The position numbers were made by a program, and so were the translations under genes. The notes beneath the pieces were generated by a model. The model had not been told where the DNA came from and searched no databases. It was given only the letters and a program-made list of their open reading frames with translations. Below are positions 18,356 through 28,328 of a stretch of DNA of 64,000 nucleotides, one piece after another. Each line of letters opens with the position of its first letter. Positions within the stretch are counted from its first letter, which is position 1. The stretch lies in assembly GCF_000828895.1 (NCBI RefSeq), contig NZ_AP014568.1, positions 124,001 to 188,000 on the forward strand, in the 5' to 3' direction. The stretch is from Serpentinimonas raichei. GTDB lineage: Bacteria; Pseudomonadota; Gammaproteobacteria; Burkholderiales; Burkholderiaceae_C.

Positions 18356-20090
18356 CCTGAATCCGTGACCCCATTAGCAGCCAAACTCTAACCCAAGCCG
18401 AATCAGCATTTGGACATGAATTCCGCTCTGGATTTCTCAAATTTGGCCCAAGCCGAGCGTGTTTGCGCGCCCATGCGCTATCAAAGCATGGGAACGGATG
18501 CGTTGAACAAGGCCGTATGGGTGTTTTTGCCTGCAAGCGCGCAGCCCCCATCCTTGGGAGCCTCCCAATTGGCTGATCTTTCTTCGGGTGCTGGTCGGCA
18601 GCGGCTGGGGCTTTGCGCTTGGCCGCTACAGCGCGTCAAGCGCGCGCCAGTGGCGCTCAAACACCGCAAAGGCCCTGTCGTTGGCCCCCAAGCCCAACAC
18701 CCACTGGCGGGCATGGTCCACCATGCGGGCGGCCTTGAACATCAACTCCTGTATCACCGTGCGGATGCGACGGCGCTGCGCGCTGTGGCGCACCGGTGCA
18801 TCGGGCCCGTGCAGCGTGTGCTGGCCAACCAAGCGCAGCAGGTTCATCGCCACGGCCGCCAGCGCGCACACCACGTAGTTGGTGTCGAACTTGCCCGAGG
18901 GCAGCCGGGTCAGATCCATGTCGGTTTTGAACTCCGAGTGAAACTGCTCATGCGTGCCGTGCTCGGCGTACAAGGCAATGACCTGCTCGGGCGTGAACGA
19001 CTCAGGCAAGGTGGTGCTCCAGCCTTCCAGCACATACTCGGGCAACAGCATCTGCTGGCCCCGTTTGTCAACGGTGCGCTCGGTCAGGCGGTACACGCGG
19101 CGTGCTTTGAGGCTCTCGTTACCGTCTCTGATGGCCACGCTTTGCTCCCACAGGCACTGGCGTTTACCGGGGCGCAATACCGTCCAAGCGGTGTTGGCAT
19201 CGGCTACCCGTGCCTGGGCGATGGTCTCTACCGGCGTGCTGCGCGGGTTCCACTTGATGAGCCACGCGACCTCGCGCTGCAGGGCTTTGGCTTGTCGGGC
19301 GATGGCACACATCAGCTTGGCCGAATCAAAGCCCGAGTCGGCCCGCAGCAGCAAGGGCGGCTGGGCCGCTGCCGTGACTTTGGCCGCCAGCGGCAGCAGC
19401 CGCTCGATGTTGTATTCGGTCTCGCTGGCCGAGTGCTGGGTGCCCGGGCGCAGGGCAAACTCCAGGCAAAAGCCTTGGGTGCCCAAGTAGGCCACCAGCG
19501 GGCAGTAGCCGTCCACTCCCGCATAGGTGCGCCCCACATGCTCCTTGGCCGTGCCGCTTTGGTCCATGGCGAAGGTGTCGATGTCCAGTGGCACATAAGC
19601 ACAGGGCAGCGCCCCGAAGTCGATGGGCTGGCCCTCGAGCTTGAGGCTCAAAACCGCGGTGTTGATGTCATCGATCAAGTCAAACCAAGCTGGCGCGTGG
19701 GTGTCCAAGCGCTGGCGCAGGGTGGGCGACGAGGGCACCGATCGCAAGCCCAAGGCGCGGGTGAAGAAAGTGTCTTGGCGCTGGCCTTCGATGGCATCAA
19801 AATCGTTCTTGCCCAGACACAGCAGGCCCAGGTAGCTCTTGAGGATGTCGCTATTGGCGATGCCGCTGCGCACGGGGTAAGCGGGGTCGACCAAGGCGTT
19901 GAGATTGATGCGCTTGAGGTACTTGCCAATCAGGGCCAAGCCAGCGTGCTGGCTCAAGTCGTAGGGCAGTTGTTTGATGACAAAATCGGGCATGGGGGCT
20001 TCACCTTCAGGGTGAAGCCCACTTGGGGTCTAGAATGTTGATTTCAATAGGGAATCAGCAGTATTTTTGGTGCGGGGTCACGGATTCAGG
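18356..20090 (-). mobile_element. IS1380-family insertion sequence
   Basis: A 1.7-kb element delimited by a 17-bp perfect inverted repeat, CCTGAATCCGTGACCCC at 18356-18372 and its complement at 20074-20090. It carries one transposase gene on the minus strand. The roughly 250 bases between the left repeat and the transposase stop hold no convincing gene. The flanking bases (TCTCA left, CACGA right) show no target duplication, and both neighbouring genes are truncated exactly at the repeats, so the present junction probably arose by recombination between IS copies or by an adjacent deletion. Confidence 0.85.
18626..19993 (-). CDS. IS1380-family transposase
   Basis: A 455-residue DDE transposase of the IS1380 (IS4-like DDE_Tnp_1) group. 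Catalytic acids are in LDIDTFAMDQSG (about residue 137), LLRADSGFDSAK (about 217) and HEQFHSEFKTD (about 354). The middle YAGVDGYCPLVAYLG and WLIKWNPR motifs are characteristic. The gene is full-length, so the element may still be able to move. The long opposite-strand open frame across it is an artefact of GC-rich codon use. Confidence 0.92.
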   Translation of the reverse strand: MPDFVIKQLPYDLSQHAGLALIGKYLKRINLNALVDPAYPVRSGIANSDILKSYLGLLCLGKNDFDAIEGQRQDTFFTRALGLRSVPSSPTLRQRLDTHAPAWFDLIDDINTAVLSLKLEGQPIDFGALPCAYVPLDIDTFAMDQSGTAKEHVGRTYAGVDGYCPLVAYLGTQGFCLEFALRPGTQHSASETEYNIERLLPLAAKVTAAAQPPLLLRADSGFDSAKLMCAIARQAKALQREVAWLIKWNPRSTPVETIAQARVADANTAWTVLRPGKRQCLWEQSVAIRDGNESLKARRVYRLTERTVDKRGQQMLLPEYVLEGWSTTLPESFTPEQVIALYAEHGTHEQFHSEFKTDMDLTRLPSGKFDTNYVVCALAAVAMNLLRLVGQHTLHGPDAPVRHSAQRRRIRTVIQELMFKAARMVDHARQWVLGLGANDRAFAVFERHWRALDAL

Positions 20091-20663
20091 CACGATATTC
20101 ACACTTGGGGTCTTGAACGCAGCCACTAGGTCGGCGTCCGAGGTATTGACAAGATTGACGTCCCTCTCCGTGAGATTCACGCTCTCGAGAGCCCTAGCTA
20201 GCAGGTAGTGGGAAACTGAAAATTGAACCAAGTTGATCTGCTGGCCCTTGAGGTCGGCAAGCTTCTTGCCTTCGCCCTTCATGACGATGCCATCATTTCC
20301 ATTGGAAAAGCTACCCACGATCAAGGCGGTCGAGTCCACGCCGCCAGCAGCGGGAATGGTCAGTGCATCCATATTGGTCATGGTGCAGCCGTCGAACGAG
20401 CCTGCGGTATACTGGTTTATCGACTCGACGTAGTCGATGAGTTGAACCACATCGACCGTTATGCCGTACTTTTTGGCCCACTTGTCCATGATGCCGCTTG
20501 ACTTGGCGTAGTACCAAGGCATCCAGCCTGCGTAAATGGTCCAGCAGACCTTAAAATTTTTTTTCTTTTTCGGTGCGTCTAAGAAGGTGGTGGTGCCCAG
20601 TACAACTAGGCCGGAAAATACGGTTGCAGCAGCAACCTGCTTGAATCGGCGGCGTGAGATCAT
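20091..20663 (-). pseudogene. ABC transporter substrate-binding protein (guanidine/urea-carboxylase-associated NitT/TauT type), 3' half lost to the IS
   Basis: About 191 codons remain of a periplasmic binding protein. The ATG at 20663 follows AGGTG by six bases and starts MISRRRFKQVAAATVFSGLVV, a Tat-like signal. Conserved text includes WTIYAGWMPWYYAKSSG, the VESINQYTAGSFDG stretch, TNMDALTIPAAGGVDSTALI and VQFSVSHYLLARALES. Coding stops at the IS1380-family repeat at 20090; the frame runs on inside the IS to a stop at 20055. The permease and ATPase genes expected downstream are absent. The guanidine-I riboswitch in the leader indicates the ancestral substrate was guanidine or a related nitrogen compound. 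Confidence 0.82.
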
Positions 20664-20715
20664 GGAAAACACCTTGGAGATGGCACACGGAAACGGCGCA
20701 CCACAATATGCTTAG

Positions 20716-20810
20716 ATCTCCAGGGCTTTTGTCCCGCCGTGTAACCCCTCAAAGGGGTCGATAGCTCTCGGACCAGACACCCGCTCGCGCAGACCGGAAC
20801 CCTAGCCGTC
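20716..20810 (-). promoter_or_regulatory. guanidine-I (ykkC) riboswitch
   Basis: The minus strand carries the conserved ykkC blocks in order: CTAGGGTTCCG near 20804-20794, CTGGTCCGAGAG near 20776-20765, and ACACGGCGGGACAAAAGCC followed by a CCTGGAGA end near 20739-20717. A closing stem (CGACCCC / GGGGTTA side) lies between the last two blocks. This class binds guanidinium and activates guanidine carboxylase, transporter and exporter genes. It stands about 50 bases before the truncated substrate-binding-protein gene. All core nucleotides I recognise are intact, so ligand binding is probably preserved although the operon is broken. Confidence 0.88.
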
Positions 20811-20871
20811 TATTGAATTTGTGGCACTTTCAATCCGGCAAATGCCAGACCATTCCCGTCAAGTCTTCTGT

Positions 20872-22055: not shown

Positions 22056-25000
22056 GTGCCGCCCGCCTTGCCTGTGCCGCCCGCGCCCCTTGAGCCTCCT
22101 GTGCCCGAAGGGCTGATCCGCATTCGTGGGGCGCGCCAGCACAACCTGAAAAACCTCGATCTCGACCTGCGCACCGGCGAGCTGACGGTGGTCACCGGGC
22201 CGAGCGGATCGGGCAAATCCAGCCTGGTGTTCGACACCCTGTATGCCGAGGGGCAGCGGCGCTACGTCGAGACCTTCAGCGCCTACGCACGCCAGTTCCT
22301 GGACCGCATGGACCGCCCGGCGGTGGACCGGGTAGAGGGCGTGCCGCCCGCCATCGCCATCGACCAGAGCAACCCGGTGCGCAACTCGCGCTCCACCGTG
22401 GGCACGATGAGCGAGCTCAACGACCACCTCAAGCTGCTGTACGCGCGCGCGGCGCAACTGTTTGACCGCCAAACCGCGCTGCCGGTGCGCGCCGACCACG
22501 CCGATTCGATCTGCGCCGAGCTGCTGCGCCGCAGCCAGCAGGAACAGGCCCGCAGCGGGCAGGAGCCGCGCCTGCTGCTCACCTTCCCGGTGCAGTTGCC
22601 GGCCAGCAGCAGCGCGCTCGAAATCGAGCAATGGCTCAGCGCCAGCGGCTACACCCGGGTGCTGGGGCAGCGCCTGCAGGCCGGCGTTGCGGGCCAGAGC
22701 GAACCGGTGCAGGTGCTCGACGTGGTGGCCGATCGGCTGCTGCTCAGCCGCGCCGAACGCGCCCGGGTGCTGGAGGCGATCGAGCGCTGCCTGCAGCACG
22801 GCGCCGGGCGGTTGAACGTTTATTTGCAGACCGACCCGGCAGCCGAGCCGCCCGCCGAGGCCAGCGTATGGCGTTTTTCCACCGGCCTGCACTGCCCCGA
22901 GAGCGACTTGCGCTACCCCGAGCCGGTGCCGGCGCATTTTTCCTTCAATTCGGCGCTCGGGGCTTGCCCGACCTGCCGCGGCTTTGGCCGGGTCATCGGC
23001 ATCGATTGGGGCCTAGTGATCCCAGACCCCAAACGCACCCTGCGCGCCGGGGCCATCAAACCGATCCAGACCCCAGCCTACCAAGAGTGCCAAGACGAGC
23101 TGCTGCAGCACGCCGAGGCGGCCGGCATCCCGCGCGACACGCCGTGGATGCACCTGAGCGCCGAGCAACGCCACTGGGTGCTCGAAGGCGAGCCCGGCTG
23201 GCGCGGCGACTGGAAGCACCAGTGGTACGGCATCCGGCGCTTCTTCGACTACCTGGAGAGCAAGGCCTACAAGATGCACATCCGGGTGCTGCTGTCCAAA
23301 TACCGCAGCTACACCGAATGCCCAGCCTGCCAGGGTGCGCGCCTGCAGCCCGACAGCCTGCTCTGGCGGCTGGGCTCCAAGGCCGACGCCGACGCGGTGC
23401 TGCCGCCCGAGCAGCGCTTTTTGCCGCCCGGCGTGGGCTGGAGCCGGGCGCAACTCGAAGCCCTGCCGGGGCTGTGTCTGCACGACCTGATGCGCCTGCC
23501 CTTGCAGCCCTTGCGCGAATTTTTTGCGCGGCTGGCTGGCACGCCGCCGGGAGCAGGATGTGATACTGCCACTGGCGTGGGCGTGGGCGTGGCCGTGGCC
23601 GCTGGTGGGAGTGGGCGTAGGCGTACAGAAGCCGAAGCTGGCGCGGCTGGGGTAGGGGTGGGTGAGGAATCGGAGCCTGCGACTGACGAACCCGCCCCTA
23701 CCCCAGCCGCGCCAGCGCAACCCACCAAGGAACCCGCCGCCAAGGACCCACCCACCGACGAACCCGCGCCAGTCCACCCCCCACCCGAACTAAAGCTGCT
23801 GCTAGACGAAATCCAGACCCGCCTGCGCTACCTGTGCGAAGTCGGGCTCGGCTACCTGACACTCGATCGGCAAAGCCGCAGCTTGAGCGGCGGCGAGGTG
23901 CAGCGCATCAACCTGACCACGGCGCTGGGCACCTCGCTCGTCAACACCCTGTTCGTGCTCGACGAGCCCAGCATCGGGCTGCACCCGCGCGACATGGGGC
24001 GCATCTTGCAGGCCATGCGCAGGCTGCGCGACGCCGGCAACACGCTGGTGGTGGTGGAACACGACCCGGCGCTCATGCTCGCCGCCGACCGCGTCATCGA
24101 CATGGGCCCCGGCCCCGGCGCGCGCGGCGGCCAGATCGTGTTCGACGGCAGCCCGGAGCAGCTGCGCCACGCCGACACCCTCACCGGCGCCTACTTGGGC
24201 GGGCGCAAACAAGTCGGCTTTGGCTTCAAACGCATGGTCACGCCCAGCACACCCCGGCTGCAACTGCGCGGCGTGCGCGCCCACAACCTGCAGGGCATCG
24301 ACGTCGATTTTCCGCTGCAGCGCCTGGTCTGCGTCACCGGCGTGAGCGGATCGGGCAAATCGACCCTGATTCAAGACGTGCTGGCCCCAGCGCTGCAGCG
24401 CCACTTCGGCCACAGCGGCCAAGCCCCGCTGGCGCACGAGGCCCTGCTGGGGGCCGAGCAGTTAAGCGCGGTGGTGTTTATCGACCAGTCCCCGATCGGC
24501 AAAACGGCGCGCTCCAACCCGGCCAGCTACATCGGCGCCTGGGATGCGCTGCGCGCCCTGCTGGCGGCACAAGCGCTGGCGCGCCAGCGCGGCTACACCG
24601 CCGCCAAGTTCAGCTTCAACGGCGGCGACGGGCGCTGCCCCGGCTGCGGCGGCAGCGGTTTCGAACGCGTCGAGATGCAGTTCTTGAGCGACGTCTATCT
24701 GCGCTGCCCCGACTGCCTCGGCCAACGCTACCGGCCCGAGGTGCTGGAGGTGCGCCTGGAGCGCGGCGGGCGCGGCTGGAACGCCGCCGAGCTGCTCGAA
24801 CTCACAGTGAGCGAGGCGCTGGCGCTGTTTGGCGCGGGCGCAGATGACAGCGCCCCCGACGATCCGGCGCAACGCAAGCTCGAGCGCACGCTCTGCGCCG
24901 CCCTGCAGCCCTTGGTGGAGGTGGGGCTGGAATACCTCAAGCTCGGCCAGCCCGTGCCCACGCTCAGCGGCGGCGAAGCGCAGCGCCTCAAGCTGGCGGC

Positions 25001-28000
25001 GCACCTGGCGCTGGCCGAGCAGAGCCGTGCGGCGAGTGCCCCGCGCCGCACCGCCGCGCCGCCGCTGGGCCAATTGCTGCTGTTCGACGAGCCCACCACC
25101 GGGCTGCATTTCGACGACATCGCCAAGCTCATGCGCGCCCTGCGCAAGCTGGTGGAGGCCGGGCATTCGCTGATCGTGATCGAGCACAACCTCGACGTGA
25201 TCCGCGCCAGCGACTGGCTGATCGACCTCGGCCCCGAAGCCGGTGCCGGCGGCGGGCAGGTGGTGGCCCAAGGCCCGCCCGAGGAAGTGCGCCTGCACCC
25301 CAGCAGCCACACCGCAGCCGCGTTGCGCGCCTACGCCGAGGCGGAAGGGGGGCTGCAGGCCAGCGAGCCCGCGCCGCCGTGGCGGCTGGCTCGGGGCAGG
25401 CCCAAGGCCGGCATCCCGTCGATCCAGATCGTCAACGCCAAAGAGCACAACCTGAAGAACCTCTCGCTGGCCATTCCGCGCGGGCGCTTCAGCGTCATCA
25501 CCGGTGTCAGCGGTTCCGGCAAATCGACGCTGGCCTTCGACATTTTGTTCAACGAGGGCCAGCGCCGCTACCTGGAGAGCCTCAACGCCTACGCGCGCAG
25601 CATCGTGCAGCCGGCCGGGCGGCCCGACGTCGATGCCGTGCACGGCATTCCGCCCACGGTGGCAATCGAGCAGCGTTTGTCGCGCGGCGGGCGCAAATCG
25701 ACTGTTGGCACCGTCACCGAAGTTTGGCATTACCTGCGCCTGCTCTACGTCAAACTGGGCACCCAGCACTGCATCCACGACCACAGCCCGGTGCAGCCGC
25801 AAAGCCCGGCGGCAATTTTGGGGCAACTGATGAGCCGTTTTCGGGGCCAGCACATCGGTTTGCTGGCGCCGCTGGTGCGCGGCCGCAAGGGCCTCTACAC
25901 CGAACTGGCCGATTGGGCGCGCCAGCGCGGGCACAGCCATTTGCGTGTCGATGGCGAGTTTGTGCCCACGCTCGGTTTCCCCAAGCTGGAGCGCTTTCGC
26001 GAGCACCAGATCGAGCTGCCAGTGGGCAGCCTGGAGCTGCAGCCCGAGCACGAAGCCGAGCTGCGCGAGCTGATCGAGCGCGCGCTCGAACACGGCAAGG
26101 GCGTGCTGCAAGTGCTCAGCGGCATCGGCGGCCCCGACGACACCGAGCGCCCCGGCAGCCTGGCCAGCGCGCTGGCGGCCGGAGGCGGCGGCGCCGGCAT
26201 CGGGCAGCTCGACAGCTACTCGACCCTGCGCGCCTGCCCGCTGTGCAGCACCAGCTACGCCGAGCTGGACCCGCGCCTGTTTTCCTACAACAGCAAGCAC
26301 GGCTGGTGCCCGGATTGCGTGGGCACCGGGGTGCAACTGAGCCGCCAGCAGCGCCAGGCTTTTGACGACAGCCGACCGCCCGACGACGGCCAGGGCCGCG
26401 AGCAGAGCCTGAGCGAGCCCGACTTCGATGACCTGAGCGAGCAGCCCTGCGCCACCTGCGAGGGCAGCCGCCTGAACCCGGTGGCGCGGGCGGTGCAGTT
26501 CCAAGGCCACTCGATTGCCGAGCTGGCGCGCTTGAGCGTGCAGGCGCTACAGGCTTGGGTGCAGGCGCTGCCCGAGGGCGGTGCTTTGTCGCCGCGCCAA
26601 GCCCAGATTGCACGCGACCTGTTGCCCGAAATCTTGGGCCGGCTGCGGTTTTTGCAGCAAGTCGGGCTGGGCTACCTGACGCTGGAGCGCGGCGCGCCCA
26701 CGCTCAGTGGTGGCGAGGCGCAGCGCATCCGGCTGGCAGCGCAGCTCGGCTCCAGCCTGCAAGGGGTGTGCTATGTGCTGGATGAGCCGACCATCGGTCT
26801 GCATCCGCGCGACAACCGGATTTTGCTGGATGCCTTGCAGCAGCTTGGCCGCCAGGGCAACACGCTGGTGGTGGTGGAGCACGACGAGGACACCATCCGC
26901 CGCGCCGAGCACCTGATCGACATCGGCCCCGGAGCCGGGGTGCGCGGTGGCCAGGTGGTGGCCCAAGGCACCTTGGCCGACCTGATGGCCGCCCCCGAGT
27001 CGCAGACCGGGCGCTACCTGCTGCACGCCATGCGCCATCCGCTGCAGGCTAGGCGTTGGGTGGCGGATGATTTTGGTGGGATTGTTGGTGGGATTGTTGG
27101 TGGGGATGCGCTGAGCGGGCTGGGGGGCGGGGCCGGCGCGTCAGTCACACGTTCCGATTCCTTGCCGACCCCACCCCCCGGCCCGCCCGCCGCAACCGGC
27201 AGCGCCATCGCAAGCCCAGGCCCAAGCCCAAGCCCCTCCCCCCCCTGGCTGCTCGTCAAAGGCGCGCAGCGCCACAACCTGCAACAGCTCACGCTGCGCC
27301 TGCCGCTGCGGCGCTTGGTGGCGGTCACGGGGGTGAGCGGCTCCGGCAAATCCACGCTGGCGCGTGAGGTGCTGCTGAGCAATGTGGCGGCGGCGGTGCA
27401 ACTGCGCAGCACCCAAGCCGGGCGGCGCGCCTGGGACGCGGGCGAGCGCCCGGCTTGGCAGGGCTGTCAGGCGCTGATCGGCAGCGAAGGCATCGAGCGC
27501 GTGCTGGAAGTGGATCAAACCCCGATCGGCAAAACCCCGCGCTCCTGCCCGGCCACCTACATCGGCTTTTGGGACACGATACGCAAGCTCTACGCCGAAA
27601 CGCTGGAGGCGCGCGCGCGCGGCTACGGGCCGGGGCGCTTTTCCTTCAACACCGGCGCGGGCCGCTGCCCGCACTGCGAGGGCCAGGGCCTGCGCACCAT
27701 CGCCATGAGCTTTTTGCCCGACGTGAAGCTGCCGTGCGAGGTCTGTCACGGCGCGCGCTTCAACCCCGAGACGCTGGCGGTGAGCTGGCGCGGCCGCAGC
27801 ATCGCCGAGGTGCTGCGCATGGAAGTCGATCAGGCGCTGGATTTCTTTGCCTCCATGCCCGCCATCGCGCAGCCGCTGCAACTGCTGCACGATGTGGGCC
27901 TGGGCTACCTCACGCTCGGCCAGCCCTCGCCCACGCTCTCGGGCGGCGAGGCGCAGCGCCTCAAGCTCGTGACCGAGCTGGCCAAGGTGCGCCACGACCT

Positions 28001-28328
28001 GGGGCGGCGCGGCCAAAAAGCGCCGCACACGCTGTATGTGCTGGATGAGCCCACGGTGGGGCTGCACATGGCCGATGTGGAGCGGCTCATCCGCATGTTG
28101 CACCGGCTGGTCGATGGCGGCCACAGCGTGCTGGTGATCGAGCACGACCTGGACCTGATCGCCGAGGCCGACTGGGTGCTGGACCTCGGCCCGGAAGGCG
28201 GGCAGGAGGGTGGCCGCCTAGTGGCGCAGGGCACGCCGGAGGACCTGGTGCGCCAGGGCAGCCACACCGGCATCGCCTTGGGGCCGGTGCTGGCGCGTGG
28301 CGCAGCGCAGCGCCCGCCGGCAGCCTGA
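22056..28328 (+). CDS. uvrA: double-length (class III) UvrA, excinuclease ABC subunit A-like
   Basis: A 2090-residue protein made of two complete UvrA units in tandem, hence four ABC modules. Walker A motifs: GPSGSGKSS near residue 48, then GVSGSGKST near 761, 1150 and 1758. Signatures: LSGGEVQRI near 609, LSGGEAQRL near 970, LSGGEAQRI near 1549 and LSGGEAQRL near 1958. Zinc-type CxxC pairs are present in each module (CPTC near 304, CPACQG, CPGC, CPLC, CPHC). All look intact. UvrA recognises DNA damage in nucleotide excision repair; double-size class III proteins occur in some proteobacteria beside a normal UvrA and their special role is unclear. The GTG at 22056 is the best start. Two low-complexity linkers (about residues 505-580 and 1665-1730) contain related palindromic elements. 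Confidence 0.9.
23637..23716 (+). repeat. palindromic element copy 1 inside uvrA
   Basis: Two 27-base arms (23637-23663 and 23690-23716) are reverse complements with one mismatch, enclosing a 26-base loop starting GAGGAATCGGAGCC and ending ACTGACGA. The element is read in frame as an Ala/Gly-rich stretch, an acidic EESEPATDE turn and an Ala/Pro-rich stretch. It forms most of the extra linker in the first UvrA unit. Copy 2 has a homologous loop in opposite orientation. Confidence 0.85.
27115..27186 (-). repeat. palindromic element copy 2 inside uvrA (opposite orientation)
   Basis: Arms of 23 bases (27115-27137 and 27164-27186) are complementary except for three transitions. The loop is again 26 bases; on the minus strand it reads AAGGAATCGGAACG and ends ACTGACGC, about 80% identical to the loop of copy 1. 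It is translated in frame as a Gly-rich, SVTRSDS and Pro-rich linker, directly after a GIVGG triplicated repeat (27072-27106). Confidence 0.82.

Follow-up and report, generated by a model that had tools for sequence, protein, structure and literature searches.

The window analyzed here, a 64,000-nucleotide (nt) stretch of the Serpentinimonas raichei genome (positions 124,001 to 188,000 of contig NZ_AP014568.1), contains on its forward strand a dual UvrA open reading frame (ORF) of 2090 amino acids (aa; 22056..28328) which passes the NCBIfam UvrA cut-off; long ORFs of this dual type also make up most of the best matches among the relatives searched. This ORF hosts two palindromic hairpins, both open in frame and free of stop codons. 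Element 1 (23637-23716) carries its motif on the forward strand, sense to uvrA, and consists of a 27-nt left arm (23637..23663), a 26-nt loop (23664..23689; GAGGAATCGGAGCCTGCGACTGACGA) comprising a tandem-G.A collar and an apical hairpin and translated as EESEPATDE, and a right arm (23690..23716), the arms being 96% complementary with 26 nt between them. Element 2 (27115-27186; 72 nt as 23+26+23, with three transitions), which was missing from the inverted-repeat list that gave element 1, carries its motif on the minus strand, where the left arm lies at 27164..27186, the 26-nt loop at 27138..27163 (AAGGAATCGGAACGTGTGACTGACGC; an A.C replaces the outer G.A, and the forward strand reads ASVTRSDSL), and the right arm at 27115..27137. 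We reproduced in these coordinates, arms, loop lengths, opposite orientations, and stop-free translations what a first-pass annotation of the window had reported; its reading of the two as copies of one dispersed element is supported by the results below.

Read on the motif strand, the stem mismatches amount to one G.U in element 1 and to two G.U plus one A.C in element 2. An unfiltered scan of the window with a covariance model built from 28 sequences, both window copies among them, recovered element 1 at 23647-23706 (+; 83.6 bits, E 8.5e-16) and element 2 at 27121-27180 (-; 72.8 bits, E 1.9e-13), with wrong-strand scores of 24.7 and 21.8 bits respectively and every remaining window match at an E-value of at least 0.25. 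The window holds two instances of the loop pattern versus none in 100 shuffles, and RNA folding gives z-scores of -11.6 and -5.9 for the two hairpins. These shuffles and model scores, together with the covariation described below, rule out chance low complexity, which the first-pass annotation had likewise set aside. Among 30 orthologue stretches covering the first insertion site in uvrA (site 1), the hairpin is present in all three Serpentinimonas and in none of the 27 others, two of which show a low-scoring unrelated inverted repeat. The segment LREFF...LDRQ at this site spans 121 aa here versus 45-60 aa in 24 of the 27 orthologues outside the genus (of the other three, one has 72 aa and two could not be anchored), and the 80-nt hairpin is therefore just a part of the extra linker. 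The earlier suggestion that the palindromes make up linkers absent from ordinary UvrA accordingly holds at site 1 as regards the hairpin's absence elsewhere, but not in the sense that the hairpin alone is the whole of the extra sequence.

Both window hairpins belong to a dispersed family. The loop motif, at up to three mismatches, occurs nine times in the S. raichei genome itself (G000; a single contig of 2,574,013 bases, in which the backward pattern is not found), 10 times in the congener G001, and 16 times in the congener G002, while 97 other genomes in the same search gave weak matches in three (four places, two mismatches), with no hairpin at those places in a stem scan. Across 84,980 species genomes the exact loop pattern retrieved 26 stretches, all from Comamonadaceae-type Burkholderiales by label: Serpentinimonas, Hydrogenophaga, Tepidicella, Tepidimonas, Malikia, Limnohabitans, or metagenome-assembled genomes (MAGs) named Comamonadaceae or Burkholderiales bacterium. 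NCBI taxonomy places four of these six genera in the Comamonadaceae, and Tepidimonas and Tepidicella in Burkholderiales incertae sedis. The 28-copy covariance model matched 20 of 299 genomes of the bacterial family, its matches being inspected in part and including some judged to lie outside the element family (L087 of G135). Its weak matches exposed other loops (e.g. GACGATTT..CATGAGGA and AACGATGTT..GTCTGAGGC) set in the same general frame, namely stem, [G/A]A-S-GA, variable inner hairpin, GA-S'-G[A/C], stem. A further model, built on 17 copies of these other loops, matched 40 of the 299 genomes, in 26 of 141 genera, and in a phylum-wide sample three of 299 genomes matched, all from the window's own family. 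The two scans of the 299 family genomes, whose matches were in both cases inspected in part, scored no more than 18 candidates in any one genome, so their copy counts are minimum values. A loop-pattern search of 18 chosen genomes gave matches in 15, with 18 in G121 and five matches lacking a stem (L180, L181, L185, L186, L200), versus a single match in total for the reversed-pattern control. All three Serpentinimonas genomes also hold a second subtype, CCGATTT..ATGAGG (CCGATTTTTGGCCGC..ATGAGG), with 13 rows in the G001 stretches L329-L338, many with similar arms. In the samples searched the element family is confined to one bacterial family and is conserved in structure, and the recurrence of copies in the genome and in several related genera bears out the dispersal that had been proposed from two copies; active mobility, which is inferred, is taken up below. 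A match on a viral contig (L067) is stemless, with four of 12 pairs, and was rejected, and the dimer L197 had no plasmid or phage match. In G002 five of the 16 copies are no more than 30 bp from the end of a contig (contigs C45, C49, C64, C87, C88), so draft genomes probably undercount the family, and draft assemblies may break at such hairpin sites.

Three properties are seen only beyond the window: a nearly sequence-free stem combined with a conserved shape and loop, the identity of the folding strand with the motif strand, and the frequent pairing of copies in a fixed facing. Among 150 copies the stem measures 24-28 bp in 112 and 10 bp in three, and the loop 26 nt in 93 and 28 nt in 35, loop conservation being partly a product of retrieval by loop pattern. 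In the 28-copy alignment, chosen from 54 rows by excluding broken stems and near-duplicates, which raises the paired percentage, 97.4% of cells are paired, 18 of 21 pairs vary on both sides, and covariation is 0.807 versus 0.187 (sd 0.018) when shuffled. The corresponding alignment of 17 copies of the other loop type, drawn from rows pre-filtered for stems with the same effect on the percentage, is 96.9% paired, varies on both sides in 19 of 23 pairs, and shows covariation of 0.804 versus 0.200. Within the loop the S-S' pair alternates between G-C and C-G, the apical pairs covary, and the outer collar mismatch is usually G.A or A.C. The collar was also considered as a kink-turn, a hammerhead, or a C/D-box, and these readings were dropped.

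The element is found in frame in uvrA, leuS, murF, and murD, all above NCBIfam cut-offs, or else between genes; a gyrA tail (a partial gene below the cut-off) and a sigma-54-type response regulator gene (no family above cut-off) carry copies as well. In three species a response-regulator gene contains two (L004, G000), one (L013, G001), and four (L026, G002) tandem copies with a period of 81-87 bp. The uvrA and leuS copies that were read lie in the corresponding frame, giving EESE.. in sense and SSV.. in antisense for this loop type. The leuS copies of all three Serpentinimonas and of Malikia granosa (L046), and those read from Limnohabitans, run antisense to the gene, whereas a Malikia MAG (L048), M. 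spinosa (L052), and L076 have theirs in sense; between G000 and G001 the whole loop subtype of the leuS copy differs. As sense and antisense copies encode unrelated peptides, selection at the peptide level is not favored as the main cause. All 35 close inverted pairs that were scored share one facing: the 31 ATTT-type pairs, 79-274 nt apart, are all minus/plus in a count blind to the AATC loop type, and the AATC type, counted separately, gives four minus/plus pairs, no plus/minus pair, and seven same-strand tandems, all seven in Serpentinimonas. A looser count gives 32 minus/plus pairs, one plus/minus pair from outside the family, and one same-strand pair, and some of the close pairs are common to related species.

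The most unusual result concerns the strand that folds. Over 113 copies with 16 positions each, mismatches on the motif strand comprise 102 G.U and 16 A.C. This count was restricted to copies from the pattern search, or to genomes whose copies that search listed, because covariance models tolerate G.U, and it kept a copy only when Watson-Crick pairs filled at least eight of its 12 innermost positions, G.U and A.C being scored as failures alike, a filter which passes 113 of 122 copies and drops nine. With all loci, including model-derived ones, the ratio is 113:17. Grouping by arm similarity into 54 clusters yields 56:6, with 32 clusters richer in G.U and three richer in A.C (p 4e-7). Partitioned by gene context, labeled from the length of the longest ORF only, the ratio is 26:5 for sense, 37:6 for antisense, and 39:5 for unclear copies; the same labels divide the 150 copies into 39, 53, and 58, respectively. 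The strand specificity is independent of the gene: the bias is the same in antisense copies, so selection does not act on a fold of the host mRNA, and single-stranded DNA or motif-strand RNA is left.

Copies at orthologous sites also change in a way that preserves the stem. We compared 56 pairs from different genomes, with both flanks aligned at 80-97% identity and stems agreeing in at least 13 of 20 columns; these pairs share members and are not independent, and the counts are accordingly descriptive. Their 1120 columns include 78 compensatory ones and 17 other double changes, with single changes divided into 76 G.U, nine A.C, 44 other, and five mixed, whereas arms changing independently would be expected to produce some 23 double changes, of which perhaps one in three would pair (about eight compensatory).

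One site, L003, is filled in G000 and empty in G001, where 111 bp are gone: the entire hairpin, whose arms measure 36 nt each, and 13 nt more. CGC opens this unit and also follows it. The empty site lacks the arms over all their 36 nt, which rules out at L003 that arms are copied from the host flank upon insertion. At L024 (G002:C74:73125-73985) the two flanks map to distant places in both G000 and G001, which suggests that this hairpin sits at a rearrangement breakpoint. Among candidate mobilizers, the Y1 transposase (PF01797) has no match in the three Serpentinimonas genomes, ruling out RAYT mobilization there, and is found in 23 of the 28 genomes searched; in the 13 other element-bearing genomes that have it, no element among the matches listed lies within 13 kb on the same contig. 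Reverse transcriptase is likewise absent from the three Serpentinimonas genomes and found in eight of 25, and integron integrase above cut-off occurs in eight of 25 genomes, three of 15 that bear the element and five of 10 others. Reverse transcriptase and integron integrase were set aside as mobilizers in the absence of a correlation with the element. A complete integron integrase is encoded in the S. raichei genome itself at G000:C1:1434649-1435593 (-; 491 bits).

The explanation toward which we lean, with somewhat more confidence than doubt, is that of a non-autonomous dispersed palindromic element of the Comamonadaceae and close relatives, which works as a folded motif strand, is moved in trans, and has a shape that is still being read. 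The working form would be the motif-carrying single strand folded as a hairpin, usually with a near-free stem of 24-28 bp, a collar in which G.A pairs flank a single covarying S-S pair, and a small stem-loop at the apex. Such elements may spread rarely as folded single strands, probably of DNA, with mobility in trans by a putative enzyme being our best inference, and would insert without harm into linkers and the gaps between genes. Once in place, the folded strand may still be read, by a host factor or by the mobilizer itself, so that the stem would drift through G.U intermediates, possibly aided by template switching between the arms; in uvrA, translation of the inserts would yield flexible linkers that probably serve no function the protein requires. 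The hairpin shape is probably recognized by some component of these cells. A more far-reaching and doubtful version is that these elements represent a class of mobile DNA defined by the folded shape of one strand and not by sequence, a tandem-G.A hairpin read by a putative recombinase or replication protein across genera, in essential genes, and on either strand.

Several observations weigh against the explanation of a dispersed, shape-read element. One of the four stem mismatches of the window copies is A.C, decayed copies exist (L025, L054), and the stems of L020, L023, L024, and L026, which are tandem or partner copies, are short. Orientation differs between species at uvrA site 1, in murF, and within Malikia in leuS, as template switching would produce, although one of the comparisons behind these flips, a looser one of orthologous pairs, includes chance flip pairs; the leuS copies L047 and L051 differ by clustered CTTT/CAAA changes. 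The L003 empty site could reflect precise deletion as well as insertion, and no mobilizer was found among the Y1 transposase and reverse transcriptase in the three genus genomes or the uncorrelated integron integrase. The sense and antisense labels and the shared members of the orthologous pairs, both noted above, count on the same side, and the strand signal fits single-stranded DNA and motif-strand RNA alike.

This last point leads to the alternative that the hairpin is a protein-binding or processing element in motif-strand RNA, be it sense, antisense, or intergenic transcripts, which we regard as rather unlikely. The tolerance of G.U would suit RNA, as would the intergenic pairs in one genus, which make up many of the copies in g120; yet the same G.U bias in antisense copies removes the host mRNA as the selected molecule, and no Rfam family reaches its gathering score at the element in the window or at ten other loci, the best sub-threshold matches there being microRNA models at an E-value of at least 0.003. 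The strongest rival is that the palindromes are functionless and unread, their perfection maintained by template switching from arm to arm during replication, with flips and compensatory changes as by-products. PMC8794818 and PMC8604942 describe compensatory change, arm homogenization, and spacer inversion from this process, and the orientation flips and the clustered differences between L047 and L051 are what it would leave. However, template switching would be expected to treat G.U and A.C equally, contrary to the 102:16 ratio with its bias in both gene orientations, an argument that is itself incomplete in that PMC8794818 proposes strand-asymmetric effects on the type of base pair. It also leaves unexplained the conserved loop, the covarying apical stem, and the fixed facing of inverted pairs, and we hold it to be unlikely. 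That these are ordinary REPINs moved by a RAYT transposase is highly improbable given the distribution of Y1 genes described above and a stem and tag unlike those of the REPs described in PMC3733652, even though dispersed inverted hairpin pairs with a spacer, sometimes intragenic, would agree with it.

The favored explanation of a shape-read element thus has to be set beside known repeats that share some of its architecture. By the account in PMC3733652, REPs and REPINs resemble the present family as short dispersed palindromes with inverted dimers, a spacer, heterodimers, and some copies in genes; inverted dimers are found here too, as the 31 of 31 and four minus/plus pairs, alongside singles and the seven same-strand tandems. 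They differ in a stem of 5-13 bp (Table 1 of that paper) versus 24-28 bp in most copies here, and in having RAYT, versus no Y1 match in the genus and a near-free stem with a conserved loop and collar. Nor is there a common GTAG foot in the 49 flank rows inspected by eye, and the GTAG adjoining the L003 site is also present in the empty site. That paper gives definitions of both GTAG and CGTC repeats. To the CGTC type it assigns Rickettsia RPE-4 and RPE-6 and Neisseria dRS3; as described there, CGTC repeats are not associated with a transposase, are mostly inverted dimers, and are sometimes intragenic, all of which resembles the situation here. Their stem of 8-9 bp and loop of 4-5 nt contrast with 24-28 bp and 26 or 28 nt, though the inner apical loop is short here, and their unpaired CGTC end and CCA tail are not seen in the 49 rows, GACG sitting instead in the loop collar. 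The architecture is REPIN-like, but other than inverted dimers the defining features of REP and CGTC repeats that were tested are not present. The words Comamonad, Acidovorax, and Delftia are absent from the main text of PMC3733652, as distinct from its figures and supplements, and a literature search limited to open-license papers, partly to top-ranked results, met no description of this palindrome family.

The longer Rickettsia palindromic elements of the RPE-1 type, in the Rickettsiales, are inserted in frame in protein genes with one favored frame and are conserved in sequence along their length. They share with the present elements the in-frame location in protein genes and differ from them in that conservation of sequence. 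The parallel drawn in the first-pass annotation is a fair analogy, with kinship not demonstrated. Integron attC sites carry R and L boxes that IntI recombines on a single strand, and like the present hairpins they act as a folded single strand with a free stem sequence; in our comparison, which was by integrase co-occurrence only, the integrase does not follow the element.

Small intragenic palindromic repeats are already known, and how such repeats move and persist remains a general question. With its many naturally occurring compensatory changes, its orthologous sites, one site known both filled and empty, and a strand signal, the present family makes shape recognition, the strand, and the mobilizer directly testable, and it illustrates how housekeeping proteins acquire long linkers.

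Elsewhere in the window, the minus strand carries a Guanidine-I riboswitch (Rfam RF00442, 86.8 bits) at 20716-20816. Near it, also on the minus strand, is a short ORF (20055-20672) which reads like the opening portion of a substrate-binding protein, possibly a truncated one.

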